Positions 34,977 to 58,902 of a DNA stretch of 64,000 bases are shown one piece after another. Under the pieces are notes generated by a model, which was not told where the DNA came from, made no database searches, and saw only the letters and a program-made list of their open reading frames with translations. The stretch spans positions 1 to 64,000 of the forward strand of contig NZ_JADKYP010000042.1 in NCBI RefSeq assembly GCF_015354405.1. The letters run 5' to 3'. The translations under genes were made by a program, and so were the position numbers. Source of the DNA: Nocardia sp. BSTN01. Lineage in GTDB: Bacteria > Actinomycetota > Actinomycetes > Mycobacteriales > Mycobacteriaceae. How positions within the stretch are numbered: position 1 is the first letter of the stretch; every line of letters begins with the position of its first letter.

Positions 34977-34982
34977 AAAGCA

Positions 34983-40213: not shown

Positions 40214-41013
40214 AGACCACCACAACGACCCCACCACCGAACCGCCACCGCTGGCTCGGACTCGCCGTCGCCCTGGCCGTCCCGCTCAGCGGATGCGGCA
40301 CTGACGCGGCTCAACCCCCGTCCGCCGGTTTATCCACAACGACCCCCACGGCTGCGGCGCGGCCCCCGCTCAGCGCGACACCGGCCCAGCCTCCGACCAC
40401 CGACCTGTTCGGCAACCGCCTTGACGTCGTCGGCGACGAAGGGCGCGCGCAGACCCAAAATCCGGCCACGCGAACCAGCTCATCGGCGGGCGACTACCTC
40501 ACCGCGGCACCAGCGCAAATGTCTTGGCAACGCGGATGGGGTGGCGCCGCGCTACCAGTTTCGGGCAGTGACGGTCCGGCTTACATCGACCACGGGATCG
40601 CCTCCGGGTTCGCCGACACCCCGCAAGGCGCGGCGCTTGCTGCCTGCGACGCGATCGCCCGCGCCCTCGCCGCGCCAGAAGAAGTGTGGCAGAACGTGGT
40701 TCGGTCCCGATTCGTCGGGGACACCGACGCATTCATCGCCAGGATGACGCGCGGCCGCACCCGCACACCGGATGCCGCCCGCTATGTCACCGTCCCCGAC
40801 GGCATCCGCATCCGCCCCGGCTACCGCCCCGACTTCGCCGTCGTCGACATCGCCACCCGAACCCGCGACGGCTACACCTACGCCTCCTGGCCCATGACCT
40901 ACGACCACGACGACTGGCGAATGCGACTACCTGACGACATCGAAACACTCTGGCAGCCAGGCGTTCCCATCGAAGCGCTTGCCGGCTTCGGGCAATGGAG
41001 GACCACCACATGA
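40210..41013 (+). CDS. Lipoprotein paralogue of the secretion operon
   Basis: A 267-residue lipoprotein with lipobox LSGC (Cys about 29), a Thr/Pro-rich spacer and a domain related to the preceding lipoprotein (GIASGFADTPQGAALAACDAIARAL, RYVTVPDGIRIRPGYRPDFAVVD, WPMTYDHDDWRMRLPDD). It overlaps the previous gene by four bases and the VirB6-like gene likewise. Two related lipoproteins side by side suggest a hetero-oligomeric envelope component. No enzymatic motif is visible. Confidence 0.7.
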   Translation: MKTTTTTPPPNRHRWLGLAVALAVPLSGCGTDAAQPPSAGLSTTTPTAAARPPLSATPAQPPTTDLFGNRLDVVGDEGRAQTQNPATRTSSSAGDYLTAAPAQMSWQRGWGGAALPVSGSDGPAYIDHGIASGFADTPQGAALAACDAIARALAAPEEVWQNVVRSRFVGDTDAFIARMTRGRTRTPDAARYVTVPDGIRIRPGYRPDFAVVDIATRTRDGYTYASWPMTYDHDDWRMRLPDDIETLWQPGVPIEALAGFGQWRTTT

Positions 41014-42416: not shown

Positions 42417-43891
42417 CCAGTCCTCGCATGTACGGCAGATGGGAGAAACCGCGCTCGGCCGGGTTCTTCGGGATGACGTGGGGTGTGAGCATGCTCGCGC
42501 TGGCCCTGCTGATCACCGTGATGGCCACATTCATGATCACCCGATCCATCCCTACCACACTGATCGTGCTCGCCTGCGCTGCAATAGTTTTCACGCCCCT
42601 CGTCATCACGATCGATGGCCGGACCGGGTGGGAGACGGCGGTCTTGCGGGTTCAGTTCGCGGCGGCGAAAGCGCGGGGTGAGCTGCTGTATCGGTCTGGC
42701 CGGTTCTCCCGTATCCCGGGCGTGGCGAGATTGCCTGGGCTGCTGGCTGATTCACGCCTCGCTGAGTGGGAGACCCCTGGCGGGAAGCGGTTCGCGATCA
42801 TCCATATTCGCCGTACCGATCACTGCACGGTGGTGCTGCGGGTGCTACCGCGCGGCAAGGAACTGGTCGACCAAGCACAAATAGACGCCTGGGTTGGCGA
42901 GTACGGGCATTTCCTGGCCTCGCAGTCACGCGGCGGTGAGGTCGTCGCGGTCACCTCGGTGCTCGAGAACATCGCCGAAACACATCTCAAGCAACGCCGC
43001 GAAGTCGCACGCCTGGTCCGGCCGCAGGCACCGGAATTCGCGGCTGCGGTGATGCGTGAGGCCGCCGCCGATATCGGCGGAGTCGGTGTGCGGACAGAAG
43101 GCCGCATCGCCATCACCTACCGTGCCATTGGCACCTCCCGCACAACGCGGCGGGATCTACCTGAGCAGGCCCGCGAGATCGGGCAACGCCTGCAAGGGGT
43201 GCTGTCCCAGCTGGCCCGTGCGGGGCTGCCGGCCACGCCGTTGCAGGCGTGGGAGGTGCTGGGGCTGGTGCGGTCGCGCTACGACCTGGCCGCCCAGCGC
43301 GATATCGAAGCCGCCGGCCCGGCGATCACCGATACACAGTCGTGGGATTCGGTGGGCCCGATCGCGCACGAGGACCGCTGGGACCATCTGGTGCACGACG
43401 GGGCCCGCTCCATCACCTGGGAAATGGACGCCCCGCCGCGGGGCGCGGTGCTGGAAACCGGTCTGGAGGAGTTGCTGCGCCCGCGCGCGGATGTGCCGCG
43501 CAAACGGGTCGCGATCGTGTACCGCCTGCATTCGGCGGCCGAGGCCACCGACATCGTGGACTCCGACTTCCGCGACGCGCTGGCCGCCGAACAGACCGAA
43601 CGCGGTATCGCCTCGGCTGCGGCGTCCATCCGCGTCGACAACACTCGCGCCGCCCGGCAGGAACAGGCCCGCGGTGCCGGTCTCACCCGATTCGGGGTCC
43701 TGGTCACCGTCACCGACGTCCTCGACGCCGACCTGCCCGGCATCGAAGCCTCCGTACGCACCATGACCGCGGCGTCGCGGCTGCGGGTGCGCCGCTGCTA
43801 CGGCTCCCAAGCCGCCGCCTTCGCCGCCTCCCTCGGCATCGGCCTGATCCTGCCCGAACACACCTCGATCTCGAAGCGGTTCAGCGCATGA
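42413..43891 (+). CDS. SCO6880-family membrane protein of the secretion apparatus
   Basis: A 492-residue protein with two N-terminal membrane helices (about 25-65) and a large cytoplasmic domain resembling the N-terminal part of VirB4 ATPases. The typical SCO6880 pattern includes MYGRWEKPRSAGFFGM, GRTGWETAVLRVQF and FAIIHIRRTDHCTVVLRV. It is translated from an ATG overlapping the VirB6-like stop and itself overlaps the ATPase gene. In this family the VirB4 function is split: this subunit gives the membrane link, the next gene the motor. Confidence 0.85.
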   Translation: MTSPRMYGRWEKPRSAGFFGMTWGVSMLALALLITVMATFMITRSIPTTLIVLACAAIVFTPLVITIDGRTGWETAVLRVQFAAAKARGELLYRSGRFSRIPGVARLPGLLADSRLAEWETPGGKRFAIIHIRRTDHCTVVLRVLPRGKELVDQAQIDAWVGEYGHFLASQSRGGEVVAVTSVLENIAETHLKQRREVARLVRPQAPEFAAAVMREAAADIGGVGVRTEGRIAITYRAIGTSRTTRRDLPEQAREIGQRLQGVLSQLARAGLPATPLQAWEVLGLVRSRYDLAAQRDIEAAGPAITDTQSWDSVGPIAHEDRWDHLVHDGARSITWEMDAPPRGAVLETGLEELLRPRADVPRKRVAIVYRLHSAAEATDIVDSDFRDALAAEQTERGIASAAASIRVDNTRAARQEQARGAGLTRFGVLVTVTDVLDADLPGIEASVRTMTAASRLRVRRCYGSQAAAFAASLGIGLILPEHTSISKRFSA

Positions 43892-45654
43892 ACATCCATA
43901 ACGAGACCCGGAAGGCCCGCCCTCCGCGAACGACGACCGTCGCGGGGATCCGCGTATTGACATCCCAGGCCCGCGCAGAGGCCGAAAGGGCCGCCGCCGG
44001 GCGCGGCGTGGCCGCCGTGCGCGCTCGCTGGGCGCTGTCGAGTGACGATCATCGCCGCGCCACTGCCGCGCGGCGGGTGGAGGATTCGGTACGCGACGGA
44101 TTCTCGCTGCCCGCAGCGGGTTTGACCGACCGCGGGTACCGCGGCGTCGGCGGTGGCCGGGCGACAGTGGTGGCGGCGACACCGGAATGGCGGGCGACCA
44201 CGGTGCAGGTGGCCGGATTGTGGCCCTTCGCGGTCGGCGCGACCGCCCCGGTGGTCGGTTGCCCGGTGGGCTCGCATTTCGTGACGGGCGCGCCGGTGCA
44301 TTTCGATCCGATGTCGTGGTTCGCCCGCGGGTTCATCACCGCACCGATCGCGTTCGTGTTGGCGCTCAACGGTTTCGGCAAATCCTCGCTGATCCGACGC
44401 CTCGCAACAGGGGCGGTCGCGGCCGGGGAAACCGTGCTGTGCATGGGCGATACGAAACCCGACTACCGCGATTTGGTCGAAGCGCTGGGTGGGCAGGTCG
44501 TCGACCTCGGCTATGGGCACGGCAGCATCAATCCGCTCGCTGTCGGCGCGCTCGGCACGATCATCGATCGACTCCCGGATCCGGATCAGCGCCGCCAGGT
44601 CGCCGCGCGGGTGGAAGCCGGACAGGTCAACATCGTGGCGGGGCTGATCGAGTTGGTCCGCGGCTCTCGCGTCGCCGACTACGAAGAAACCCTCATCGCC
44701 GCCGGGCTGCGCGAACTCTACAGTCCCGCAGGAGGATTCAGTCCGGAGCTGCCGCCGCGGCTGTCGGATCTGCTGGCCACGATCTCCGGCGGCGCGAACC
44801 GGTTGCGGCAGTTCGCCGAGGAAGACGACGACGTCGCATTCCGGGCGGCGACCAAAGTGCTGCGCCGCTCGCTACGCGCGGTGATCGAGGGACCGTGGGG
44901 CCAGATCTTCGACCGTCAGACCAGCACACCACTGGATCTGAACAGCCCGGCCGTGTGCATCGATGTGTCCCGCATTCCCGAAGGCGATACGAAACTGCTG
45001 GCGGCGGTGCTGATGGTGTGCTGGAGCGAAGGGTTCGGCGCGGTCGCCGCCGCTCACGCCCTGGCCGACGCAGGTCTCGCGCCGCCGCGCACGTTCGAGG
45101 TCGTCATGGACGAGATCTGGCGGGTGCTCGGTGCGGGGGAGTTCATGGTCGACCGCGTCGACGCCTTGACCCGGTTGAACAGGCCGCTGGGCACCGGGTT
45201 GATCATGTGCAGCCACACCATCAAAGACCTCGCCGCCTTCGACTCACCGGCTGCGCAAGCCAAAGCCCTCGGCTTCTTCGAACGTGCCCGCGCCAAAATC
45301 ATCGGCCCCGTCGGACCGGAAGAGATCGAACGCCTCCGCGCCGCGGTATCGATCACCGACACCGAAAAGTTGCTGGTCACCTCCTGGGCGGCGCCCCGGC
45401 CACCGACAGACGATCACCTCGACAATACCGGCGAACGCGAAACCCCGCCCGGCACAGGATGTTTCCTGCTCAAAACCGGTGAAGCCGACGCGCCGGGTGT
45501 GCCGTTCCGCATGACCTTCACCCCGACCGAGCGTGCCCGCGACATCCACAACACCAACCGCCGCTTCTCTCACCTTACCGGAGAACACCACGACGGCCCG
45601 CAGCCATCGTTCGATGCTGAGGCTTTCGAGGTGGGGGAGGACGGCGATGAGTGA
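43888..45654 (+). CDS. VirB4-like ATPase
   Basis: A 588-residue motor protein. Walker A is ALNGFGKSSLIRR and Walker B TFEVVMDEIWRVLG. The intervening GDTKPDYRDLVEALGGQVVDLGYGHGSINPL and TGLIMCSHTIKDLAAF are typical of VirB4/TraC C-terminal motors. It energises assembly and transport in type IV secretion. The ATG at 43888 overlaps the previous stop; longer in-frame extensions run through that gene and are rejected. It is co-translated with the NlpC/P60 gene. Confidence 0.9.
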   Translation: MNIHNETRKARPPRTTTVAGIRVLTSQARAEAERAAAGRGVAAVRARWALSSDDHRRATAARRVEDSVRDGFSLPAAGLTDRGYRGVGGGRATVVAATPEWRATTVQVAGLWPFAVGATAPVVGCPVGSHFVTGAPVHFDPMSWFARGFITAPIAFVLALNGFGKSSLIRRLATGAVAAGETVLCMGDTKPDYRDLVEALGGQVVDLGYGHGSINPLAVGALGTIIDRLPDPDQRRQVAARVEAGQVNIVAGLIELVRGSRVADYEETLIAAGLRELYSPAGGFSPELPPRLSDLLATISGGANRLRQFAEEDDDVAFRAATKVLRRSLRAVIEGPWGQIFDRQTSTPLDLNSPAVCIDVSRIPEGDTKLLAAVLMVCWSEGFGAVAAAHALADAGLAPPRTFEVVMDEIWRVLGAGEFMVDRVDALTRLNRPLGTGLIMCSHTIKDLAAFDSPAAQAKALGFFERARAKIIGPVGPEEIERLRAAVSITDTEKLLVTSWAAPRPPTDDHLDNTGERETPPGTGCFLLKTGEADAPGVPFRMTFTPTERARDIHNTNRRFSHLTGEHHDGPQPSFDAEAFEVGEDGDE

Positions 45655-46784
45655 TGTCGTCCACCAGAACCATCCTCACAGGCATCGTGGCACTGCCCGT
45701 CGCGTTGATCGTGTTGCTGGCAGTGCTCGTCGGCATCCAGCCCGCGGACTCATGTACGGCCCAGGTGCTCGCTGGGGGAGTGGCGGGCCCGACGGGGCAG
45801 TCGCTGGCGGGGTTGAACGAGCGGCAGTTGCAGTTGGCGCGCAATGGTGTCGTGATCGGCAAACAACGCCGGGCGCCGGAGTCGGTGATCATCGCCGAGC
45901 TGGCGGCGATGATCACCGAATCGACGTTGCGCAACCTCGCGAACTCCAACGTTCCGGAATCGCTGAGCTTCCCCAACGACGGAGTCGGCGCCGATCACGA
46001 TTCGGTGGGCCCGCACCAGATGCGGGTCAGCGTCTGGGGACGCGTCGGTATCGCCGCCCTCATGAACGTGGCCTATCAGGTCAACTGGTTCTACGACCAA
46101 GCCGCCACCATCACCGGCGCCGCCTCGATGTCCTCAGCCGAACTCGCCCAAGCAGTCGAAGTGTCCGCACCGAACGCCTATGCCGGACAACTGGACCTGG
46201 CCCAACGCCTCTACGCGATGTTCGCCGACATCGACCCAGCGTCCATGCCCGCCCCCGCGCCAGGACAACCGGCTCCTGGATGTGGACCCGGCTCGGGACC
46301 ACCCGGCGCGCCAGTGCCGGCCAGTGGGTACGGACAGGCGGTCGTGGCCGCGGCGCAGCGGTGGATCGGTACCCCGTACGTGTGGGGTGGTGGAGACGCG
46401 AACGGTCCGACGGGCGGCGGGTTCGACTGCTCAGGGTTGACGTTGTACGCGATCTACCAGGCTTCGGGTGGGCGAATCCGGTTGCCGCACTACACACAAG
46501 CCCAGCAAGACTCACCAGCTGGGCAGGTGGTTCCGTTCGATCAACGCCAACCCGGGGATCTGATCTTCCTCACCTCTGCCGGCGAGAGCGATTCTCACCA
46601 TGTCGCCGTGTACGCGGGCCGCGACGCCGACGGTACGGACCTGGTCATACACGCCCCGCAAACCGGCGAAACCGTCACCACCGCACCTCTTTCCCGCGTC
46701 GCTGGATCCGACCACCTCGACGTCCGCCGCTACACCACCCCGCAACCTCGAAGCCCGACAGTGGAAGAGGGAAAACAGTTGTGA
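45651..46784 (+). CDS. Cell-wall hydrolase: lysozyme-like domain plus NlpC/P60 peptidase
   Basis: A 377-residue exported or anchored protein. One N-terminal membrane helix (TGIVALPVALIVLLAVLVGI) is followed by a lysozyme-like region (AAMITESTLRNL with candidate Glu, DSVGPHQMRVSVWG). The C-terminal NlpC/P60 domain has Cys260 in GGGFDCSGLT, His in HHVAVYAG and His in LVIHAPQTG. It opens peptidoglycan for the transport channel, the role of VirB1-like enzymes. The start is GTG 45651 or ATG 45654, both touching the VirB4 stop. Confidence 0.88.
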   Translation: MMSSTRTILTGIVALPVALIVLLAVLVGIQPADSCTAQVLAGGVAGPTGQSLAGLNERQLQLARNGVVIGKQRRAPESVIIAELAAMITESTLRNLANSNVPESLSFPNDGVGADHDSVGPHQMRVSVWGRVGIAALMNVAYQVNWFYDQAATITGAASMSSAELAQAVEVSAPNAYAGQLDLAQRLYAMFADIDPASMPAPAPGQPAPGCGPGSGPPGAPVPASGYGQAVVAAAQRWIGTPYVWGGGDANGPTGGGFDCSGLTLYAIYQASGGRIRLPHYTQAQQDSPAGQVVPFDQRQPGDLIFLTSAGESDSHHVAVYAGRDADGTDLVIHAPQTGETVTTAPLSRVAGSDHLDVRRYTTPQPRSPTVEEGKQL

Positions 46785-47883: not shown

Positions 47884-48947
47884 CCAGCGGCAACGGCGAC
47901 CCTGTCGACGAGGGCGGGCAAGCGGTCAAAGCCGGGTTCGTGCAAGCGATGCAAACCGCGGCGATGACGATGAACCTGCTCCAGCGCCGCGGCAGCGAAT
48001 CGCGCTCACGGCAGGAGTTCACGCAACGCCAAGACGACCGGATCGCCGAACAGCAACGCAAGAACCACATCCACGGCTTGCAGCTGCAGGGCTACATCGA
48101 TCGCTCGCAGCACGGCCGCCTCGAGCATTGGGCCGACATGGCGATCAAGGCCGGCCGCTACCGCGAGCACCTGCTCGAAATGCAGGTCAAAAACGCGCGC
48201 CTGCAACACGATCAAGACAAAGCCGACCGCGCCAACGATAGCGACAAGGCCACCGAGGAACGTCGCGACAAGACTCACGGGTTGCAGGTGCGCGCCCTGC
48301 GTGGTGAGTACAACCGCAAAGACGCGATCCACACCCAGCAGTTGCGCCGCTACGACAAACAGATCGCACAAGACCAGCGGCTACACGATCTGAAGGTCGA
48401 ATACCAGCAGCTGCTGATCGAGGCCCGCAAACGCGCGCTCGGGCTCACCGAAACACTCACCGACACCGACCCCGGCACCGCCCGCGCTCACGCTGCCAGC
48501 GCGGGCTGGGCGGCGGCCGAGGCCACCGCGGATCTGTCCGACCAGCAGCGCTTCGCCGCCGACGCGTGGGCCGAACGCTACGGCGAGGACACCGGCAAGG
48601 ACCCCCGTACCACATTGGCCGATGCGCGTGCCGAGGCTGCATCCCTCGACGACGCGGTCGATGAACTCCACACCCAGACGAGCGCGCTCAGCGCCGAGTA
48701 CACCCTTGCCAGCTATGGCGAATCCCAGCTGCGGGATATGAACTCCCACAGCGCCACCGAACCCGCCCGCGGGCCCGATGCCGATTCAGGCGAAGAGCTC
48801 GAAGTGCTCGACGGAGAGGTCATCGACGTCGCAGTCGAGGTCACCGGCGTCACCGGTGACCTCGATGTGGGCGTCGATTTCGCGCCATCGGTTTTCCCAC
48901 CCGTCAAAGCTCTCGGGCCCGCGCCGTCGACGGAGATCGAACCATGA
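47880..48947 (+). CDS. Coiled-coil hypothetical protein
   Basis: A 355-residue soluble protein. Residues about 45-220 are extremely rich in Gln, Lys, Arg, Glu and His with heptad-like spacing (QDDRIAEQQRKNHIHGLQLQ, QLRRYDKQIAQDQRLHDLKV), i.e. a long coiled coil. The second half is Ala/Asp/Thr-rich and ends in an acidic, proline-tailed segment. It starts the run of cytoplasmic genes between the envelope genes and the coupling protein. A scaffold or substrate-adaptor role is possible. Confidence 0.65.
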   Translation: MTSGNGDPVDEGGQAVKAGFVQAMQTAAMTMNLLQRRGSESRSRQEFTQRQDDRIAEQQRKNHIHGLQLQGYIDRSQHGRLEHWADMAIKAGRYREHLLEMQVKNARLQHDQDKADRANDSDKATEERRDKTHGLQVRALRGEYNRKDAIHTQQLRRYDKQIAQDQRLHDLKVEYQQLLIEARKRALGLTETLTDTDPGTARAHAASAGWAAAEATADLSDQQRFAADAWAERYGEDTGKDPRTTLADARAEAASLDDAVDELHTQTSALSAEYTLASYGESQLRDMNSHSATEPARGPDADSGEELEVLDGEVIDVAVEVTGVTGDLDVGVDFAPSVFPPVKALGPAPSTEIEP

Positions 48948-49885
48948 TGGCGCGCAACACCTTTCTTGTCCGCGAATCGGGTCTGGCTGTGCCCGATCGG
49001 TGGCAGATGAAGCTGCTCGCGGGTGTGTATTCGCATGCGTCGGCGGCGCGGGAGATGGCCGCGGCGGCGCGAGCCGGGCGGGAGGCGACCGGGGAACTTC
49101 CGCCCCCGTCCTGGTCGCGGGCGTTTCGCACCGAGGTCCTGCTCGGCCAAGAGCTCGAGAAAGCGGGACTGGCCGCCGGGGTGCCGCGCGAGTGGCTGAA
49201 CCAGGCGCGCACGCGCGCCCATCTGGCTCAGCCGTGGCGACGTGACCTGCACTGGCGCATCCCGAAACCGGCGGACCGGACCAGGTTGCTGGTCGGGCTG
49301 GCCGGTGAGGCGCACCGGATTCAGGACCTCGCCGCGGTGGCGGTCGCCTACGAGCACCGCGGCGCGCACGCCGAACCCGGCACCGCGACCTGGGTCATGC
49401 GCAACCTGCGCAGATCCCGCACCCGCCTGGTCCAACTCGCACGCCTGCTCGCCGTGACCGACGACGAAGCCCAGCGAATGTGGAACTCGCCCCAGCACTG
49501 GGCCGCCGCCGCCGAGGGGGCCCGCGACGCGAGTGTCGACGAACTCGACTCCCGCTGGCGCACCCACGCCCGCAGCGACCAGACCAGCATCGTCCTGCAG
49601 GCCCGCGCCCTCACCAAATCCGGAATCACCGCACCAACCAGCGCCGCACTCCCACCACCCGATCAGATCCTCCAGATCCTTCGAAACGAGCTCGGACACA
49701 ACACAGTTCCTCTATCCGAGGCCTCAGACCGGCGTTCGGCAGCCGATCTGGTCGCACCGGCCGGGCAAGGCATCGATAGGGCGCTGGCCGCAGCGGGAAT
49801 CGGCAGTGGCGGCCATGACGGCCTGGTGGCGGATCTTCCGCCGCTGCCACGACAGCCCGGCACCGGAGTCGAGGTCGAACTATGA
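48944..49885 (+). CDS. Array protein 1 (paralogous cytoplasmic family)
   Basis: A 313-residue soluble helical protein. It has an N-terminal helical pair (LLAGVYSHASAAREMAAAAR, RTEVLLGQELEKAGLAAGVP) with the family step A-G-(V/I)-P-x-x-W-(L/I), a middle helical domain (LLVGLAGEAHRIQDLAAVAV, RTRLVQLARLLAVTDDEAQRMW) and a C-terminal tail with GQGIDRALAAAGI. The same order recurs in the following genes. No catalytic motif, signal peptide or membrane segment. Overlaps its neighbours by four bases. Confidence 0.65.
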   Translation: MMARNTFLVRESGLAVPDRWQMKLLAGVYSHASAAREMAAAARAGREATGELPPPSWSRAFRTEVLLGQELEKAGLAAGVPREWLNQARTRAHLAQPWRRDLHWRIPKPADRTRLLVGLAGEAHRIQDLAAVAVAYEHRGAHAEPGTATWVMRNLRRSRTRLVQLARLLAVTDDEAQRMWNSPQHWAAAAEGARDASVDELDSRWRTHARSDQTSIVLQARALTKSGITAPTSAALPPPDQILQILRNELGHNTVPLSEASDRRSAADLVAPAGQGIDRALAAAGIGSGGHDGLVADLPPLPRQPGTGVEVEL

Positions 49886-50823
49886 CCGGGCCGGAACGCG
49901 CCGTCGGTGCGGCCGGTCGGCGTCCGGTTGCGCCGAATGCGGCGCAGAAGGCACTGCTGCGGCGGTTGTGTGCGGTGGCGGCCCAGACGAGGGTGTTGCT
50001 CGATACCGCCCGAAACGACTATGAGACAGGGGTTTTAGCAGAACCTGCCTGGTTCGCGCGCCTGGATGCCCTGATGGCGCGCAGCGCCGCGCTGGTGGAG
50101 CTGGGCCACGCCGGTGGGATACCGCAGCGGTGGATCGATCTCGCTCGCCAGCAGGGCGAGCGCGGCACGGGGTGGCGGACCCCGCAACGATGGCCCGTCC
50201 CGCATCCCGTGCACCGGGCCCGCCTCATCGACGACCTCGCGGCCGAAGCCCGCGAACTCAGCGATGTCATGGCCGTCCATGCCGCCTACCGCACCCGTGC
50301 CCGCAGCGATGAACCCGAATCGCTGTGCACACGGATCGAAGCCACAACAGCGTTGCGCCACGAGCGTCTGACCTCGATCGCGGCGCTCTTGGATCTGATC
50401 GGACCCGAACGGGACCGGATCAGGCCCGCCTCGGATCCGATCTGGGCCCGCGCTCTGGCGGCCACGGTGCGAGACCGTGGTCCCGACCTGCTGGCACAAC
50501 AATGGCGCGCCTACGCCGAATACGAACCCACATCGGTGGCGGCCTACCGGCTGCTGACCGACCACGGCGACCTCGACTTCATTCCGGATTCCGCCATCGC
50601 GCCCGTCCCCGCGGTGATGGTCGAGCACATCGCCGCAGCTCTGCGGCTGCCACCCGGTCTGGCTGTTCACGGCCTGCCACTCGGCGCAGCCACAGACAGC
50701 GCCGTGAATGCCGCGTTAGGCGAGCCCCGGTGCGTCGAATTCCCCGCGCCAACTGCCGGCGACGAGCAGCACGCCGGCGCCGGCCCGGCACTCATACATC
50801 GCGACGGCGGCCCCAGCCCGTGA
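49882..50823 (+). CDS. Array protein 2
   Basis: A 313-residue helical protein. It shares with the next gene AAQKALLRRL (AAQVALLRRL downstream), ELGHAGGIPQRWIDLAR (ALGRAGGIPAQWLGYAR) and LAAEARELSDVMAVHAAY (VAEQAREFGQIAAVHAAY). The tail GAATDSAVNAALGE matches the array's C-terminal motif. These matches show that genes 49882 and 50900 are recent paralogues. Function unknown. A 76-base gap follows. Confidence 0.65.
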   Translation: MTGPERAVGAAGRRPVAPNAAQKALLRRLCAVAAQTRVLLDTARNDYETGVLAEPAWFARLDALMARSAALVELGHAGGIPQRWIDLARQQGERGTGWRTPQRWPVPHPVHRARLIDDLAAEARELSDVMAVHAAYRTRARSDEPESLCTRIEATTALRHERLTSIAALLDLIGPERDRIRPASDPIWARALAATVRDRGPDLLAQQWRAYAEYEPTSVAAYRLLTDHGDLDFIPDSAIAPVPAVMVEHIAAALRLPPGLAVHGLPLGAATDSAVNAALGEPRCVEFPAPTAGDEQHAGAGPALIHRDGGPSP

Positions 50824-50899
50824 CCGAGCACGGGCAGACCGTTGTGAGCCGCTGGCTATCCGGCGGCGGAGCACAGAGCTTGAGACCAGGAGCAAAAGG

Positions 50900-51838
50900 A
50901 TGACGACTCCCCACCCGACACCCGGTCCAGTCCGCATCGGAGCGCAGACGTCGACCGTCTCGTCGGGCAGTGACCGTGTCCGGGGTCCGAACGCCGCCCA
51001 AGTGGCATTGCTGCGGCGGCTGCGTGAGGTCTCCGACGGGCTGCACCGGATGCAGGAAACCGGCCGTCTCGGAGGCGAATTCGGACACTTTCCCACCGAA
51101 CTGTGGCACGACTACCTCGACGAAATGCACGACCGCGCCGACGCACTGACCGCGCTCGGACGTGCCGGCGGTATCCCCGCACAATGGCTCGGCTACGCCC
51201 GCGGCCACAGCACCGCGCAGGTACCGGGCCGTTGGCCGGAAACCGGTGCGCCGCCGCGTGCGGAACTGATCGGCGCCGTGGCCGAGCAGGCGCGGGAGTT
51301 CGGGCAGATCGCGGCCGTGCACGCTGCCTACCAACTCCACACCACCGGCGAATTCGATCGAGCGCAGGAAGCCTTCGCTGAAAAGCTGGGCCAACACTGG
51401 GACCGGATCGCTACCGTCGCAGCGCTCCTGCGACCCGTCGGCACGGAACGCGAACAGATATGGCCCGCCGCCGAAGACCCCGTGTGGATAGAGGCTTTCG
51501 CCGACCCCGTACGCGACACCGACCCCGGCGACCTGGCACAGCGATGGCATACCCACCTGTCCGCCCCGGACGCCGACGTGGCCGCACACGCGACGCTGGC
51601 CGACTACGGCGACCTCACCTGGGACCCCGACCGCGAACTCGTGCCCCCACCGCAATCGCTGATCACCCAAGTCAGCGCCGCACTACGCGCCCAGCACACG
51701 GTCGGTGGTGGCGCCACGATCGACGCCAATATCGGCGCCGCGCTACCGGAGATGGCCCGCGAATTCACACCCGAGATCCCCACATCGGACCCGCACCGTG
51801 GTGTTGTCCCGGCGCTCGACACCGGACCCCAACCGTGA
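50900..51838 (+). CDS. Array protein 3
   Basis: A 312-residue helical protein, closest to array protein 2 in the N-terminal (GRAGGIPAQWLGYARGH) and middle parts (FGQIAAVHAAYQLH, RIATVAALLRPVGTEREQIW). Its tail, SLITQVSAALRAQ then ATIDANIGAALPE, gives the array C-terminal motif. GGAGC lies upstream of the ATG. No signal or membrane segment. Function unknown. Confidence 0.65.
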   Translation: MTTPHPTPGPVRIGAQTSTVSSGSDRVRGPNAAQVALLRRLREVSDGLHRMQETGRLGGEFGHFPTELWHDYLDEMHDRADALTALGRAGGIPAQWLGYARGHSTAQVPGRWPETGAPPRAELIGAVAEQAREFGQIAAVHAAYQLHTTGEFDRAQEAFAEKLGQHWDRIATVAALLRPVGTEREQIWPAAEDPVWIEAFADPVRDTDPGDLAQRWHTHLSAPDADVAAHATLADYGDLTWDPDRELVPPPQSLITQVSAALRAQHTVGGGATIDANIGAALPEMAREFTPEIPTSDPHRGVVPALDTGPQP

Positions 51839-51899
51839 CCGCAACCCGGCAGACCAAAACACCAGCAGTGCAACAAAATTCGATTCAGGAGGCCCACCG

Positions 51900-52811
51900 A
51901 TGACCGACCCGCAATCACCGCGCGTGCAGCGAAGACCGATGTGGCAGCAAAGACTGCTCGACCGGATCCAGGACCTGTCCGACGACCGCGGCCGGCTCCT
52001 GCGCGAGGGCTACGACACTCCGCCCGGGGCGGGGGAGTTGTCCATGCTGGCATGGCGCACTCAGCTGCTGCAGCTGGCGGCTGACCGCAGCGAGATCGAA
52101 GCCCGCGCGCACGCGATCGGCATCCCGCCCGCCGAAATCGCCGCCGCCCGAGCGGGAGGAAGCCGCGGACGCCGAGCCGACCTCAACCCCGAGCCCGGCG
52201 CCGATGCGGTGCGCGAGCACGTGATGGGCTGGGTGGCCAGCGACGTATGGCAGATCCAGCACATGGCCGCGATCGATGTCGCCCACCGGATGCGTGCGGT
52301 CACCGACGCACCCCGGTTCGAGCCCGAACCGTGGATGGTCGCTCAGTTCGAGCGCAACCTGAGCGCGTTGTGGATACGGGCCGGCAACGTCGCCGACGCG
52401 ATCGGCCTCACCGTCGACGAATCCGCCGGAATGTGGGCGCGGACCAGCAGTGACTGGCAGCGAATCCTCGACGCCACGACACATAGCTACGACAACGAAG
52501 CAGTCGAGGAACGCTGGCGCATCTACGCCCGCCCGGGCATCGAAACCAGTGTGATACGCGATGCCACAGCCATCACCCTGCGCGTGGACGTCGCCCTGTC
52601 CGAGCAACCGGTGCGCATTCCCACGCCGCACGCGATGAAGACCGCCGCAGCAGCGTTCCTGTCTGACTCCTCGTCCGGCGCCGACGCCATCGCCGACGCG
52701 ATCGACCGCGCCCTGCCCGCCGAAGCAGACCACACCCGATGGGAGCCCGCCCCACCCGCCGACCCGCCCCAGCCTCCCGGCCGCGATCTCGACACCGGAG
52801 CCCAACCATGA
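51900..52811 (+). CDS. Array protein 4
   Basis: A 303-residue helical protein with WQQRLLDRIQDLSDDRGRLL at the N terminus (WQAKLLARIDRLAREYAMVQ in array protein 5), the step AIGIPPAEIAAAR, and a core WQIQHMAAIDVAHRMRAV (WHVHRMALLTAARDSRL in the next). It ends ADAIDRALPAEADHTRWEP, the fullest form of the C-terminal motif. AGGAGG precedes the ATG. Function unknown. Confidence 0.65.
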   Translation: MTDPQSPRVQRRPMWQQRLLDRIQDLSDDRGRLLREGYDTPPGAGELSMLAWRTQLLQLAADRSEIEARAHAIGIPPAEIAAARAGGSRGRRADLNPEPGADAVREHVMGWVASDVWQIQHMAAIDVAHRMRAVTDAPRFEPEPWMVAQFERNLSALWIRAGNVADAIGLTVDESAGMWARTSSDWQRILDATTHSYDNEAVEERWRIYARPGIETSVIRDATAITLRVDVALSEQPVRIPTPHAMKTAAAAFLSDSSSGADAIADAIDRALPAEADHTRWEPAPPADPPQPPGRDLDTGAQP

Positions 52812-52878
52812 CCAGCGCATTCCCCCAGCCGAACCGGCTGGCTCGCACAAACATTCACCTACCGAGGAGGTATCGATC

Positions 52879-53844
52879 ATGACCGACCCCGGCCCTGGCC
52901 CTGCACGCTCGATCGAGCAGTGGCAGGCGAAGTTGCTGGCCCGCATCGACCGGCTGGCGCGCGAGTACGCGATGGTGCAGGCGCGCGGCTTCACCGGCTA
53001 CGACGGCACCGACGGCTCGCCCGAGCAGGAGTGGCGTTCGCACCTGGACGCGTTGGAAGCCGAACGCGAAACCACCGAACAACTGGCCATCGAACTCGGC
53101 ATCCCACCCCAATGGGTCGAACACGCCCGCACCAACGGCACCGAAGCAGCCGAACTGCCGCCTCCCGCACCAGAAATCGCGAACACTGTCGTCGATCAGA
53201 CCAGCCAGGCCGATATATCCGGGGCTGCCTCGGCGTCGAAGCAGCTGTTCATCGATATGGCCGTGGTCGATGTGTGGCATGTGCACCGGATGGCGTTGTT
53301 GACTGCAGCGCGCGACTCCCGCCTCAATGCCGGGCGTCTTGGGTTGGGCGCCGATCCGATCGCCGACAGGCAGTTCCACCGCAACATGGCACTGCATCAT
53401 CAGCGCGCGGCGGGACTGTCCGACGCCGCGCAACTGTCCGCCCCCGAGGTCGCAGCACTATGGGACAGCCCCCAAGTCCGCACCGCGCGCCGCCAAGCCG
53501 CGCAGCAGATCAACCGGTGGGACGACCTGCACCTGGAATTCGAGTGGCGCCGCTACACCCAACCCGTCACCGACCCGGCTTTGCCGCCCTACATCCCCAC
53601 CGACCCAGCCACCGGAGCGCCCACCAGCCAGGCACAAGCACCGCCACCGGCGCCTGAGGAACTGATCGCGCGCGCCGCCGCCGCGCTCGGTATAGACCCC
53701 AACCGCACCGACCGGCTCCCGATCCACCACGCAACCGCCATCGATATCGCCTTGCCCGCGGCGACCATCCGCGACTGGCAACCCGGCCACGCCCCAGCAC
53801 CACCGCCGACCGCCACAGGCCCGGACCTCGGGCCCGAACCCTGA
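52879..53844 (+). CDS. Array protein 5
   Basis: A 321-residue helical protein and near relative of array protein 4 (see there for matched segments), with AIELGIPPQWVEHARTNG, FHRNMALHHQRAAGLSDAAQ and VAALWDSPQVRTARRQ (compare RMWNSPQHWAAAA in protein 1). Tail HATAIDIALPAATIRDWQP. GAGGAGG before the ATG. The 67-base gap upstream and the good ribosome site suggest some independent control. Confidence 0.65.
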   Translation: MTDPGPGPARSIEQWQAKLLARIDRLAREYAMVQARGFTGYDGTDGSPEQEWRSHLDALEAERETTEQLAIELGIPPQWVEHARTNGTEAAELPPPAPEIANTVVDQTSQADISGAASASKQLFIDMAVVDVWHVHRMALLTAARDSRLNAGRLGLGADPIADRQFHRNMALHHQRAAGLSDAAQLSAPEVAALWDSPQVRTARRQAAQQINRWDDLHLEFEWRRYTQPVTDPALPPYIPTDPATGAPTSQAQAPPPAPEELIARAAAALGIDPNRTDRLPIHHATAIDIALPAATIRDWQPGHAPAPPPTATGPDLGPEP

Positions 53845-53977
53845 GACCATCCCCGCCCGCTTCCCGGTGATGCCGCTGGCGCCGACCATCACCGCAGACC
53901 GATCCGAACCACCGCGAGGACATCCCCTCACGCCCGGCCCACCAGCCGCGGCCCGCTTCCCGACAAGGCGGAACCCG

Positions 53978-54862
53978 ATGTCCGACAACACATTCCCCAC
54001 CACAGGGTCGCCCGAAGCCAGCACCCCAGACCTGACAGCGAGCCCAACTCCCCCCGCCGCAGCGGCGCATCCTGCGGTGCCGCCGACAGCGTTTCGATCG
54101 CGCACCGTCGCTTCTGCGCTGGCGGTCCGGTTCGGCCCCGACGACCCCGACGCTGTGCATGCCCTCGCGCTCCGCGCGGTGCAGGACTCGATGAAGCGCT
54201 ACATCGACTGGCAACGCCATCAACCCCCCGACGGCGCTGCTGCCGGTCCTGGCGAGTGGCGAGTGACCGCGGTCAACGGCGTTGAAGACGATTTGCGCCG
54301 CGCCTACCTCGACGCAGTCCAGGCCGGCGTCCCGATCAGTCAGATCGACACCGCCCACGATCTCGGACGAGCCGGTGTCGGATGGGACCAGCAACCCGCC
54401 CACCCGCTGCTGGGCCGGCTCGAACGCCTCGCCCACGAACTCACCCTCGCCGAGGCCCGGGCCGGCAACGACCGCGCCCGCATCCGCGAACTCGAAAACG
54501 AGCGAGACCACGCCCACACCCGGATCGAAACCCTGTCCGAAGACCTCGCCCACGCCCGCAACACCATCACCGGCCAGACCGAAGAAATCATCGACGCCGA
54601 GTGGCTGACCGGACACCGCCACCACAACACCGAACCCAGCCCGCAGCCTGCCCGCGCGCTGGCTCAATCCAACGCCGAGTTGGCTTTGGCCAACGACATC
54701 GACGCCCTCGAACGCACCACATCGCTCGACACCAGCGGCGGGATCAGCACAGCAATCGACACCGCACTGCCAGGCCGGCCCGACTACTGGCCCGACACCA
54801 CCGACCCCGACACCGGGCCACCGTCCGGCACGTCCGATCACGGGCCGGAGGTGACGCCGTGA
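53978..54862 (+). CDS. Array protein 6 with coiled coil
   Basis: A 294-residue protein whose N-terminal 45 residues are Pro/Ala/Thr-rich. It then has a helical domain with DLRRAYLDAVQAGVPISQID (the array's A-G-V-P step) and a coiled coil (ERLAHELTLAEARAGNDRARI, IRELENERDHAHTRIETLSE). The C-terminal motif is GISTAIDTALPGRPDYWPD. The start ATG 53978 follows AAGGCGGA; in-frame ATGs at 53867/53870 would add an unlikely Pro/Arg leader. Function unknown. Confidence 0.65.
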   Translation: MSDNTFPTTGSPEASTPDLTASPTPPAAAAHPAVPPTAFRSRTVASALAVRFGPDDPDAVHALALRAVQDSMKRYIDWQRHQPPDGAAAGPGEWRVTAVNGVEDDLRRAYLDAVQAGVPISQIDTAHDLGRAGVGWDQQPAHPLLGRLERLAHELTLAEARAGNDRARIRELENERDHAHTRIETLSEDLAHARNTITGQTEEIIDAEWLTGHRHHNTEPSPQPARALAQSNAELALANDIDALERTTSLDTSGGISTAIDTALPGRPDYWPDTTDPDTGPPSGTSDHGPEVTP

Positions 54863-56136
54863 CCGCGCTGGACGAGCCACTGGGTTTCACCAACCCCGAC
54901 TACTACACCGACGCCGCCTCCCGTACCGAGCGGCAGCTGCGCGCCGACTTCGCCCGCTACTACCAGCTGCGCGAGATCGCGCCCTCCGCCATCACCGCCG
55001 AGGCGCGAGCCGAATTCAACTCCCGCGCTGACGAGCTGGCGATCCGGTGGGCACGCCACGAGTCCGAACATTGGCGCGGCACCTGGGCGGGGCTGCAGCG
55101 CGTGGTGGCCGGATGGCGAACCCAACCGGAGATCGCGCGCCGCAACTTCGACCAGATCGCGCGCGCCCGCGCCACCGGCGAGGTAGCGATCGACGACGAC
55201 ATCTGGCGCACCCTGCAACAAGCGCGCCTGATCACCGGGCACGGCCCCGCCGCTATCAGCGGCTCAGGCCAAGACGCCGCCCGCCGCTACCCCTACCTGC
55301 AACCCGACATGGGCGCCACCACCGCGCCGGCACAGCCGGTAGAGGAGGTCGATCGCCGCACTGCGGTCGAGCGCACCCTGGGCGCGCCCAGAAACCAGGC
55401 TGCTGCGGCGCTGCCGAGCCTCGCGCAGGTCGACGCGGTCATCGCCGACACAGATGCGTTGCTCGACGCCGAGGAATCGGCAGCTGATCTCGACGACGGT
55501 CGCGAAGCACGAAAACTGCTGCTGCCCCGAACGGTTCGTGAGGCACGAATCTCGGCCGACTACACCCAGACCGAGACCTGGGAACGCCTTCACGTCGAGG
55601 CTCTGCGTGAAGTCCAAGACCTCGCCGCCGAGCACAGCAACCTCGCCGATCACCTCGACGGCACCGACGACCAAGCCCGCATCGCCCGCCTGGACCGGCT
55701 GCGGGCCGCGCTGAGCGCCGCGCGACGCGACGCCCTCGCCATCGGACTCACCGACGACCAGATACAGACCGCGTACACCACCGGCCGCGACGGAATCTAC
55801 TGGGCCACACAACCATCCGATCCGAATTTGGGACGGATTGCCCAGCTGCTCGAACACCGCGACCTCGCCCGCGCCGCCGCAGAGTCCTACCGCAACCAAT
55901 TCAGCGGAGCTACCGCGAGGGCCGCCGGCCCAGGCCTAACGGCCGCTCACAGTAGCTCGATCGAGGGCGCCGCCGCTCGGGAGCTTTCCGAGACCGGCGG
56001 CGGTGCGGGTGCGGCGATTACCGCTGCGGTCGAGACCGCGCTTCCCGACACCGACCTCGGCGAATGGTCGCCACCTGTCGACAGCGCGGTATCGAAAGAT
56101 GCCGTCTCCCAGCTTGATCAGGAGATGGGCTTGTGA
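54859..56136 (+). CDS. Array protein 7 (largest)
   Basis: A 425-residue helical protein from a GTG overlapping the previous stop. Helical repeats include RADFARYYQLREIAPSAITA, FDQIARARATGEVAIDDDIW, ALREVQDLAAEHSNLADHLD and RDALAIGLTDDQIQTAYTTG. The last two echo the middle domain of the smaller array proteins. Tail: AAITAAVETALPDTDLGEW, i.e. the array motif, then a 22-residue extension. It is adjacent to the coupling-protein gene. Function unknown; an adaptor or a transported protein is possible. Confidence 0.65.
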   Translation: MTALDEPLGFTNPDYYTDAASRTERQLRADFARYYQLREIAPSAITAEARAEFNSRADELAIRWARHESEHWRGTWAGLQRVVAGWRTQPEIARRNFDQIARARATGEVAIDDDIWRTLQQARLITGHGPAAISGSGQDAARRYPYLQPDMGATTAPAQPVEEVDRRTAVERTLGAPRNQAAAALPSLAQVDAVIADTDALLDAEESAADLDDGREARKLLLPRTVREARISADYTQTETWERLHVEALREVQDLAAEHSNLADHLDGTDDQARIARLDRLRAALSAARRDALAIGLTDDQIQTAYTTGRDGIYWATQPSDPNLGRIAQLLEHRDLARAAAESYRNQFSGATARAAGPGLTAAHSSSIEGAAARELSETGGGAGAAITAAVETALPDTDLGEWSPPVDSAVSKDAVSQLDQEMGL

Positions 56137-56203: not shown

Positions 56204-58054
56204 ATGGCGCGGCAGACGCGGCGCCGGACGACCGGCGGGTTCGGCGAGGAAACCTGGCTTCTGCTCATCACCCTCGGTCTCATCGCGTTCGCGCTGCTCG
56301 CGTGGGCGGCGCTGTCGGTCGGAAGCTGGTGCGCCGGACTGCCCATCACCGCGCATCCGGTCGCGGCACTGCTGCAGGTGATGGCGGGCAGACATCGGTG
56401 GCCGTGGCAATCGAGCGTGGTCATGGCAATTGCGCTCGCGGCTGTCGGGGCGCTCGCGGTCATGTTTCGTAGACGGTGGGCATCGGTGCGGGGCAGCGAC
56501 ATCGACCGCGCGGCACGCACGATGGTGCCCCCACGCCAGATTTCGACGGCGCGCCAGCAAGACAACGCCAGCGCGGCCGAGCGGCTGCTCAAAGACGCAC
56601 CAGCCGACGTCCGGACACGGCCGGGGCCGCCGCTGGGCCTCACCGTCGTCGGGGGAGTCGAGTTGTTCGTGCCGGCCGAGATGGGAGTGTTCATCGCAGC
56701 CGGTCAGCGCACCGGCAAAACGATGGCGTGGGCGATCCCGGCCGTGCTGAGCGCGTGGGGGCCGGTGCTGGCGACCTCAAACAAACCAGACCTCTACCGG
56801 CACACCGCGTTCGGTCGTGAACAGCGTGGCCGCGTCTGGCTGTGTGACTTGCAAGCGGTGACCGGGCAGGCGGTGTGCGGGTTCTGGGTCGACCTACTCG
56901 ACCGGGTACACACCCTCGCTGCCGCACGAAAGCTGGCGTCCTTCTTCGTCTCCGGGGCCTCGGGGTCGGCATCGGAGCGGGCCAACGCCCGTGTCGACTC
57001 CTACTTCGACGGCGGCGCTCAAGAACTGTTGTCCTTATATCTTCTCGCGGCCGCCTGTGTCGACGGTGACCTGCTCCACGTCGCCGAATGGCTGTCCAGC
57101 GATCAAGACCAAACCCCGATACTGATCCTGCGCCACCACAACCATCGGCGCGCGGCGCAACGGATCCTCGACGCGCAAGGACTGTACGCGCGCCAGAGGG
57201 ACGGGTTGTACGACATGGCACGCAGGTTCTTGAACGTAATCTCCGACGAGGGCTACGCCACCATGATCACCCCACCCGCCCGCACCCACGTCAGCGTCTA
57301 CGAGACCAGCGACTCGATCATCATCGACACCGCGCTCGGACCGGCGACCCACAACCTGCCCGAATTCAATCCCGCCGACTTCGTCACCAGCAACGACGCC
57401 CTCTACGCGTTGTCGATGACCGGACCCGACTCCGCCAGTGCCCTCACCGCCGCCCTGGTCGGCCAAATCCTGGAATCGGCGCTGACGTTCGCCCGCGCAC
57501 GCCCCGACGGGCGCCTCGCCGTGCCACTGCTGGCGGTGCTCGATGAAGCCGCCAACTGCGCACTCATCGACGAGTTGCCCAGCTACTACACCTACGCCGC
57601 CGGATGCGGCGTCATCCTGCTGACCATCGTCCAGGTCCTCGAACAAGCCGAAGACCTCTGGGGCGCACACGGTCTCACCATCATCCGGGCCCAATCGATC
57701 GAAATCTACGGCGGCAACATCGCCACCCCCACCTACCTCGAGCAATGGGCCCGCCTGGTCGACGACCACGACGTCGCCGACCACTCCCGTTCCACCGGTC
57801 CCGGTGGCACCAACCGCTCCACCAGCTGGCGCGCCGAACCCATCCTCAACGTCGCCAAACTCGCCCGCCTACCCAAAGACCGCGCCCTGGTCCGCCTCCC
57901 CGGCCACGAACCGGTCCTGATCGAAAAGCAATTTTGGTGGGACAACCCTGCCCTCGAACCACTCGTCACACAATCTCTGGCCCGCTTCGCCAAACCACCC
58001 ACACCAACCGCGCGACCGGAAAACACCGGCGGCGCAGCAGGAGTCGAACTATGA
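56204..58054 (+). CDS. VirD4/TraG-type coupling protein
   Basis: A 616-residue membrane-anchored ATPase. Two N-terminal helices (WLLLITLGLIAFALLAWAAL and SVVMAIALAAVGALAVMF) precede the motor domain. Walker A is GVFIAAGQRTGKTMAW and Walker B VPLLAVLDEAANCALIDELP; TYLEQWARLVDDHDV and the SWRAEPILNVAKLARLP segment are usual for actinobacterial TraG/VirD4 proteins. It recruits substrates to the secretion channel. The start is ATG 56204 (GTG 56201 also fits). It overlaps the DUF4913 gene. Confidence 0.9.
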   Translation: MARQTRRRTTGGFGEETWLLLITLGLIAFALLAWAALSVGSWCAGLPITAHPVAALLQVMAGRHRWPWQSSVVMAIALAAVGALAVMFRRRWASVRGSDIDRAARTMVPPRQISTARQQDNASAAERLLKDAPADVRTRPGPPLGLTVVGGVELFVPAEMGVFIAAGQRTGKTMAWAIPAVLSAWGPVLATSNKPDLYRHTAFGREQRGRVWLCDLQAVTGQAVCGFWVDLLDRVHTLAAARKLASFFVSGASGSASERANARVDSYFDGGAQELLSLYLLAAACVDGDLLHVAEWLSSDQDQTPILILRHHNHRRAAQRILDAQGLYARQRDGLYDMARRFLNVISDEGYATMITPPARTHVSVYETSDSIIIDTALGPATHNLPEFNPADFVTSNDALYALSMTGPDSASALTAALVGQILESALTFARARPDGRLAVPLLAVLDEAANCALIDELPSYYTYAAGCGVILLTIVQVLEQAEDLWGAHGLTIIRAQSIEIYGGNIATPTYLEQWARLVDDHDVADHSRSTGPGGTNRSTSWRAEPILNVAKLARLPKDRALVRLPGHEPVLIEKQFWWDNPALEPLVTQSLARFAKPPTPTARPENTGGAAGVEL

Positions 58055-58902
58055 CAACCCCTACACCGGGAGGTTCACGGCAGACGCGGAAACCCGCGGC
58101 TCCGGCATATCCGGACTTCGTCACCTTCGCCGAGCAATGGCTGTTCCCGTTCATCACCGTGCGCCTCGCCGAAGCCAACCGCGAACACACCTGGACCTGG
58201 TGCAGCCAATGGTGGCGCCACCGCGCGGTGAGCGTGCGCATCGCTCACCTGCACCGAGCCTTCGAAGCCATGCGCACAGACAAGAACGCCGCCGGCCTGT
58301 CGGCTTTCATACTCCACCACCTCGACCCCCACTTCCGCGTCATCCTCGACGCCGCCAACGGGCCCCTGCACCGCTGCACCCGCACCAAACACCTCGCGCT
58401 GCCGTCACTGTCCTGCGAACCCGTTCCGGCCGGATGGTTCAAACCCTCAGCCGAGCCCGACACGAAATCGGGCGACACCAAGCCTTATCGGTTCGGCCAC
58501 TACGCCGATTTCGTGGAGCAATGGCTGCTGCCGGTCACAGCGGCCCGCATCACAGCCAACCATCGCGAAGACCAGAACACCTGGTGTCGGAGGTGGTGGG
58601 ATCACCGCAGTGTCGCCGTGCGCTTCGCCGCGTTGCACGTCGTATTCGAAGCCGCCCGCGTCGCCGAGGACCGCTCTGCCATGTCGACGCTGTTCGTCTC
58701 GCACATCGACCCGCACTTCCGATACATCCTCGACGCCGCCAACGGGCCCCTGCACCGCTGCACCCCCGACCACCACACACCCGAAACAGGTCTACCCACG
58801 GCAGATGTGCCCGCCAACTGGTTCACCGCACTCGCGCGCTCCACCCCGCCAGAACACCTCGGATTCGGACCAGACTTCCGCGACCATCCACAGACGCAGT
58901 AA
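58051..58902 (+). CDS. Protein with two DUF4913-like domains
   Basis: A 283-residue soluble protein made of an internal duplication. Residues about 20-115 and 150-245 align closely: FVTFAEQWLFPFITVRLAEA versus FVEQWLLPVTAARITANHRE, CSQWWRHRAVSVRIAHLHRA versus CRRWWDHRSVAVRFAALHVV, and DPHFRVILDAANGPLHRCT versus DPHFRYILDAANGPLHRCT. DUF4913 proteins usually have one such domain and sit beside coupling proteins in actinobacterial conjugative elements. Overlaps the VirD4 stop by four bases. Last gene of the operon. Confidence 0.8.
   Translation: MTTPTPGGSRQTRKPAAPAYPDFVTFAEQWLFPFITVRLAEANREHTWTWCSQWWRHRAVSVRIAHLHRAFEAMRTDKNAAGLSAFILHHLDPHFRVILDAANGPLHRCTRTKHLALPSLSCEPVPAGWFKPSAEPDTKSGDTKPYRFGHYADFVEQWLLPVTAARITANHREDQNTWCRRWWDHRSVAVRFAALHVVFEAARVAEDRSAMSTLFVSHIDPHFRYILDAANGPLHRCTPDHHTPETGLPTADVPANWFTALARSTPPEHLGFGPDFRDHPQTQ

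Follow-up and report, generated by a model that had tools for sequence, protein, structure and literature searches.

Among the proteins moved by conjugative type IV secretion systems (T4SSs), relaxases are the classical substrates. How coupling proteins of Gram-positive bacteria recruit relaxosomes is reportedly a matter of limited evidence. According to the cited papers, T4SS effectors of Xanthomonadales carry a common C-terminal module, XVIPCD, that is needed for interaction with VirD4 (PMC6536674), and Bartonella Bep proteins carry BID as C-terminal delivery module for the VirB/VirD4 T4SS (PMC6509941, PMC8714903). The conjugation machine of the F plasmid also delivers proteins to recipients; its signals are C-terminal or internal and follow no single motif, and positively charged C termini are discussed (PMC11288057, in passages). 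Here we analyse a window of 64,000 nucleotides from Nocardia sp. BSTN01 (contig NZ_JADKYP010000042.1, positions 1 to 64,000), in which an array of seven genes beside a VirD4 gene encodes proteins with a shared C-terminal tail. The tail suggests a new kind of address label for conjugative T4SSs. In searches of open-access literature on Nocardia, Rhodococcus and SCO6880 T4SSs, no listed paper described such an array or tag, as judged by titles, the starts of abstracts and passages of PMC3218068. Array and tail are a real conserved feature, undescribed as far as these searches reached, and the function that we assign to them is a proposal from sequence.

Seven consecutive open reading frames (ORFs) on the + strand span 48944–56136, directly before the VirD4/TraG-like gene and inside a conjugation-type T4SS cluster (Table 1). 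We compared their products with a hidden Markov model (HMM) built from array proteins of other loci only, with the subfamily of the last position excluded. Genes 1–5 match it almost from end to end (E 1.6e-56 to 8.8e-83); for genes 6 and 7 the match is confined to an N-terminal module and a weak match near the C terminus. This module of about 90 residues, of the type GVPxxWIxxARxxGxxGxxW, is common to genes 6 and 7 and the array and is backed by profile comparison (probability 95.3, E 2e-8). Gene 6 consists of module and tail without most of the core, and gene 7, a member of the last-position subfamily, has an extra N-terminal domain before module and tail. By these matches, the 'seven-gene paralogous array' of an earlier sequence-only reading is made up of five full-length paralogues (genes 1–5) and two partial ones. 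The A-G-(I/V)-P step which that reading took to be shared is found as G-[IV]-P in six of the seven proteins, the exception being gene 7 with IGLT, and in its full form in genes 1 and 6 only.

The motif in the tail reads I-x-x-A-[IV]-[DE]-x-A-[LI]-P, usually followed by W, and from its end to the stop there is a nearly constant 28–31 residues. The last ~45 residues comprise a short helix, often with a W close behind, then a spacer that varies and an end that is mostly acidic, and the net charge of the tail is negative. The ending A-I-x-x-A-L-P plus W that had been proposed as common is borne out, as the strict pattern A-[IV]-x-x-A-L-P with W, by genes 4–7 (ALPAEADHTRW, ALPAATIRDW, ALPGRPDYW and ALPDTDLGEW), but genes 1–3 lack the exact form: gene 3 has IGAALP and then F, gene 2 AVNAALG and gene 1 a weak form. 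A count of the strict pattern covered 88 ORFs of the family, taken from the window and from 12 stretches of nine other genomes, after three shadow or fragment ORFs of L052 had been dropped. The pattern occurred within the last 100 residues of 40 of the 88, against 0 of 188 further 100-residue segments of these proteins, and in 4.6 ± 2.2 of 88 after shuffling (200 shuffles, maximum 11). Thirty-six of the 40 patterns end 28–31 residues from the protein end, a regularity absent from the earlier reading. In 242 distinct array tails we counted 79 instances of A-[IV]-x-x-A-[LI]-P; 62 lie 28–31 residues from the stop and none farther than 50. We then trained a 12-column ungapped tail model on array tails alone; in 140 of 172 held-out tail clusters, its best site across the whole protein lay between 24 and 40 residues from the end.

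The motif is also present in orthologous arrays; its absence from orthologues would, by the sequence-only reading, have refuted that proposal. Comparison of the window with close orthologues at six loci gives 84% identity for the core and 78% for the linker; the motif itself stays at 81%, the stretch from there to the end falls to 63% and the last seven residues reach 75%. The motif appears as a conserved islet within a diverging tail. At the chain end, 151 of the 242 distinct array tails have G at −4, and 144 have E or D at −2. We set the extreme end aside as the main signal, since most relaxases have other endings and the last codons can overlap the start of the next gene.

The tail is not restricted to the array family. 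The coiled-coil protein encoded immediately upstream has no array HMM match, and the tail model scores it 8.7 at a site 30 residues from its end. Across its family, 27 of 34 proteins score at least 4 and 21 of 34 at least 8, against 4 and 1 of 277 other T4SS-operon ORFs and 103 and 22 of 5,020 remaining ORFs, all of these controls being picked mechanically and including overlapping frames. The six best of the 5,020 background ORFs are + strand ORFs of T4SS loci; but of 34 matches scoring at least 7, just 17 lie on the + strand. The best site of the scored ORF lies at the expected distance from the end in 28 of the 34 coiled-coil proteins and in 13 of the 17 relaxase rows, against 9 of 277 controls. 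On a plasmid of Nocardia sp. NBC_01377 the slot before VirD4 holds three tandem proteins of ~595 aa with DVLP, AAIP and AALP, each 31 residues from the end (tail scores 8.0, 3.6 and 9.1 at that site), and relatives of these proteins score 16.9 (L087) and 10.7 (L091). Two small cluster proteins score 16.2 (L080, 3011–3580; its body resembles the gene 7 N-terminal domain by eye) and 12.0 (L090, 15458–16018).

Some side observations concern these sister clusters. A second tandem family (~600 aa, starting RQxLAYLFVVxAL; L036 12171–17798, L087 4873–6693 and L091 2101–4167) fills the same slot before VirD4 in some of the Nocardia clusters and has a similar tail; its L087 member has no Pfam match. 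Upstream of the M23 peptidase gene of the NBC_01377 plasmid, a hypothetical protein (L036, 2321–3313) ends with DLIGAALP and ~30 further residues (score 6.5).

Short-class MobF relaxases of integrase-linked elements, mostly ~1,390 aa long, carry the tail as well: 16 of 17 distinct genes score at least 4 and 12 of 17 at least 8, in a set that came from searches with the tail in the query and is biased to tail bearers. Examples are scores of 22.0 (G103), 19.6 (G112) and 18.8 (G160). These relaxases are interrelated (41–80% identical to the first of eight), and the Fisher values of 7e-13 (12/16) and 2e-26 are rough, since the rows are related. Several are represented by C-terminal fragments and one comes from a 1,595-aa frame (L201); L195 and L266 represent a single gene, L194 (2.8) was counted as a miss, L196, which has no stop, was excluded, and the short-class hits G154:C7 and G160:C61 got no locus. 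An alignment of eight shows a variable C-terminal extension in which the invariant columns are the I of the motif and the A three residues later.

The source genome (G000; 7.79 Mb in 206 contigs) has two MobF relaxases, on contigs C121 and C141, and none on the array contig C144, which holds the window. The short relaxase on C141 scores 10.9 at a site 29 residues from its end, the best in its 1,386 residues, and has the domains of a MobF protein (TrwC PF08751, 2.4e-83; helicase PF13604, 3.9e-50). An integrase and a resolvase lie within 20 kb, no VirD4 was found on the contig at E <= 1e-20, and the relaxase probably belongs to a mobilizable element. The stretch around it (L245, G000:C141:183000–202999) shows a tyrosine integrase, the resolvase and the short relaxase, apparently with no T4SS genes nearby.

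We also searched genomes with a tail HMM, scoring at most 150 candidates in each. Across 10 array genomes, all matches below E 0.02 fall in T4SS clusters; in G103, a genome with no array match, the relaxase tail is the top hit (E 0.0068). Of the 14 genomes that have short relaxases, 10 carry the array; among the other 137 the figure is 48 (p 0.009). MobF relaxases occur in 56 of 58 array genomes against 35 of 93 array-less ones (Fisher 1e-14; tallied by hand). A common C-terminal module, as looked for in T4SS substrates, is found on unrelated carriers: the coiled-coil family, sister-cluster proteins and short relaxases. The earlier idea of a T4SS-linked C-terminal signal is strengthened by this recurrence at the same distance from the end. 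The long relaxases near arrays lack the tail.

The array is old, ordered and, as far as sampled, confined to one genus. With the seven proteins as query, 10 of 60 genomes matched: the source genome, 9 of 35 other members of the genus and 0 of 24 from other genera. A deeper profile found the family in 58 of 151 Nocardia genomes, 55 of them with three or more stretches. In an order-wide search of 397 genomes the source genome alone matched, at reduced sensitivity (5 candidates scored per genome) and with at least nine other genus members in the draw. Named VirD4 loci numbered 64, of which 44 were from Nocardia and 20 from other genera. At least three array ORFs were found at 35 of the 44, one or two at 6 and none at 3, some of these loci being interrupted by contig ends; the 20 loci of other genera had none. 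No sampled locus or genome outside Nocardia showed the family. The closest named VirD4 relatives of the window are from Nocardia kruczakiae (94%) and N. nova (92%).

The 35 loci hold 3 to 13 array ORFs each. Complete loci run NlpC, sometimes an array gene, a lipoprotein-like gene, the coiled-coil gene, array genes, VirD4, DUF4913 and often two more array genes. In a tree, the genes last before VirD4 make up 34 of 34 tips of one clade (support 0.90), those first after DUF4913 18 of 18 (0.90), those second after it 18 of 20 (0.50), and those first after the coiled-coil gene 27 of 30 in a clade whose support of 0.0 makes it weak. By this tree, array members are orthologous largely by position, and the set looks more like a dedicated complex or a fixed substrate set than a diversifying arsenal of effectors. 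Broken or fragmentary members were seen in L052 (the G012 array) and at single places in G009, G112 and G162, so not every member is always needed.

Table 1 Array genes and conserved T4SS genes of the window (E values are for the array HMM; tail motifs are given as position, score and residues from the protein end)
Feature	Length	Position	Strand	Basis	Tail motif
VirB6-like		40995-42416	+	Name from position and length	
SCO6880 family		42413-43891	+	463 bits against a cut-off of 60	
VirB4-like		43888-45654	+	VirB4-type models match weakly, under their cut-offs	
NlpC/P60-like		45651-46784	+	NlpC model match under its cut-off	
Coiled-coil type protein	365 aa	47850-48947	+	'Coiled coil' judged by eye	48819-48854
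Array gene 1	313 aa	48944-49885	+	E 1.5e-61	Weak; 49769-49804; 10.2; 26
Array gene 2	313 aa	49882-50823	+	E 2.7e-65	50689-50724; 16.0; 32
Array gene 3	312 aa	50900-51838	+	E 1.6e-56	51716-51751; 19.9; 28
Array gene 4	303 aa	51900-52811	+	E 8.8e-83	52686-52721; 19.1; 29
Array gene 5	321 aa	52879-53844	+	E 2e-81; helical model	53725-53760; 10.4; 27
Array gene 6	294 aa	53978-54862	+	E 4.7e-8, two partial stretches	54740-54775; 25.3; 28
Array gene 7 (GTG start)	425 aa	54859-56136	+	E 1.4e-8; hhalign 95%	56014-56049; 23.3; 28
VirD4/TraG-like coupling protein	616 aa	56204-58054	+	PF12696 57.1 bits (cut-off 22); PF02534 52.7 bits (cut-off 20.1)	
DUF4913-like protein; closes the conserved block		58051-58902	+	phmmer match to genes annotated as DUF4913 on related plasmids (3e-110 for L036)	

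The core genes from VirB6-like to NlpC/P60-like keep an identical order in related loci, and the coupling ATPase of a conjugative T4SS is represented by a protein that passes the cut-offs of both of its models. ATGA overlaps join the coiled-coil gene to gene 1 and gene 1 to gene 2, and a GTGA overlap joins genes 6 and 7. By eye, the DUF4913-like protein apparently consists of two tandem copies of one domain. Two cutinase-like genes lie upstream in the T4SS region (32641–36521; the Culp6 model is under its cut-off for the first), and cutinase family genes are also annotated in T4SS regions of Rhodococcus and Prescottella.

None of the seven array proteins matched Pfam or NCBIfam above cut-off or PHROGs at E <= 0.1, and searches of PDB sequences and folds gave nothing usable (no fold match at E <= 0.001). 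No likely membrane segment was found in them (highest 19-residue Kyte–Doolittle mean 1.45). For gene 5, AlphaFold2 (alignment of 100 sequences; predicted local distance difference test score 84.8) gave a helical core at residues 12–225, followed by a linker and by a tail of low confidence in which a short helix (284–291) lies over the motif. The same protein as query matched no plasmid record. A derivation of the array core from the C-terminal region of relaxases was considered and dropped; the single profile match was weak (probability 5.8, E 0.0065) and ended in the tail.

We lean cautiously towards reading the tail as a portable C-terminal docking or targeting tag through which a T4SS, most likely by way of VirD4, recruits the array. 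The last ~45 residues would act as the tag and the coupling protein encoded beside the array would most likely be its reader. Through it the machine could recruit the ordered, non-equivalent helical array proteins, the upstream coiled-coil protein and the relaxases of some separate mobilizable elements. The array proteins might then be delivered to the recipient with the DNA, which we slightly favour, or be held at VirD4 as an adaptor. An ordered set points to a complex or a fixed set of substrates, and a tail common to relaxases to a signal of the substrate type. Our confidence goes no further because selection enters part of the evidence from relaxases, and because among eight further genomes the tail HMM recovered the relaxase of only one. 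A bolder version, in which Nocardia T4SSs own a transferable tag, array proteins are injected with DNA and mobilizable elements have tagged their relaxases to ride the same machine, we put forward as tentative.

Several results weigh against recognition by a tag. When relaxases were collected without the tail, by the TrwC domain PF08751 alone (20 loci in 10 array genomes), all 14 complete long relaxases were tail-negative at the expected place. One of the 20 loci was positive, namely the short relaxase of the source genome; two others were cut off, and the rest, other relaxases or unclear ORFs, were negative. Three further relaxases of 1,452–1,798 aa also lack the tail. In G034, G104, G062 and G112 the long relaxases share contigs with arrays, at distances of ~17–90 kb; they look like the cognate ones of the array systems and must then be recruited by another route. 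The tail HMM missed the short relaxases of G000 and G035 at E <= 0.5, and G103 was the one further genome in which it succeeded, the other seven giving no relaxase. Four of the 14 short-relaxase genomes have no array, and in the first two of the three NBC_01377 tandem proteins the best site of the tail model is elsewhere.

The long MobF C termini (for example L139, L140, L141, L143 and L144) show a pattern of their own by eye, AE-x-x-RR-x-x-L followed by E-x-x-x-R at ~30–55 residues from the end and an acidic D-x-G-L end; it is possibly their own transfer signal. A scan of ten 20-kb stretches from three genomes looked between relaxase and array for additional cargo with the tail; 6 of 999 ORFs passed (score at least 7, best site), none of them credible by eye.

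The ordered, position-kept paralogues keep alive the hetero-oligomeric adaptor that the sequence-only reading had named beside effectors. The array would then be a cytoplasmic platform at VirD4 that is never exported, and the tail would only dock, offering the same dock to the relaxases of other elements. The four positional clades, the conserved order and the searches that found no membrane segment or toxin domain agree with such a platform, but copy number varies from locus to locus, the tail is also found on relaxases, which are exported, and related T4SSs of other genera lack the set; we consider it possible, if doubtful. A related question is whether something other than VirD4, such as the coiled-coil protein or a relaxosome protein, reads the tag while assembling a transfer complex. 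In the sequence, position alone singles out VirD4, and the three array-less short-relaxase genomes that we checked (G103, G008 and G101) have a more distant VirD4 and no close one. Yet the coiled-coil protein itself bears the tail, and in other T4SSs the C-terminal signals that are known act on VirD4 (PMC6536674, in passages), which leaves another reader rather improbable. A second, distant T4SS type with SCO6880, VirB4, VirD4 and DUF4913 relatives was seen in several Nocardia genomes (L236, L238 and L240–L244), and nine stretches of it, from G103 and G008 among others, gave no array HMM hit and no convincing tail by eye.

Shared ancestry without any common receptor, or with another role such as protein turnover, would need only tandem duplication and recombination of 3′ ends to spread the tail. 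Exchange would be easy among paralogous array members with an adjacent coiled-coil gene, short disordered tails are easily misread and the long relaxases lack the tail. We nevertheless judge it unlikely: the motif is retained while the stretch after it diverges, its end distance is fixed across different families, and it recurs on relaxases elsewhere in the genome and in array-less genomes. Least of all do we expect antibacterial toxins delivered by the T4SS. Like Xanthomonas effectors, the array proteins are encoded next to VirD4 and have a common C terminus, but they are homologous over their full length and do not vary in catalytic domains, and their conservation is ordered. Library scans found no enzyme or toxin family above cut-off, such as the toxic N-terminal enzyme domains of XVIPCD effectors, and no fold match; immunity genes were not searched for. 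That the array proteins are effectors, one of the two possibilities raised by the sequence-only reading, is not shown by these results, and the positional conservation of the array is unlike a diversifying arsenal.

If the docking tag is real, a short recognisable label on cluster proteins and relaxases would make relaxosome recruitment by Gram-positive coupling proteins directly testable, and would help to predict cargo and to match mobilizable elements with the conjugation machines open to them. The Nocardia array is well suited to testing how T4SSs of Gram-positive bacteria recruit proteins. It resembles the XVIPCD effectors in placing one C-terminal module on several proteins. XVIPCD is a domain of ~120 residues with a glutamine-rich end, attached to variable toxins, whereas here a ~12-residue motif, 28–31 residues from the end, lies in a mostly disordered acidic tail of ~45 residues on homologous helical proteins. 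BID is likewise a C-terminal delivery module, but it is a folded domain, and no BID model matched the array proteins. For F-plasmid substrates, positively charged C termini are discussed and there is no one motif; the Nocardia tails are net negative and share one. Plasmid T4SS clusters of Rhodococcus, Williamsia and Nocardia have the same core order around VirD4 and DUF4913. The array family is absent from 20 of 20 VirD4 loci outside Nocardia, and on the plasmid of Nocardia sp. NBC_01377 the slot before VirD4 is taken by a different tandem family whose tail is similar.

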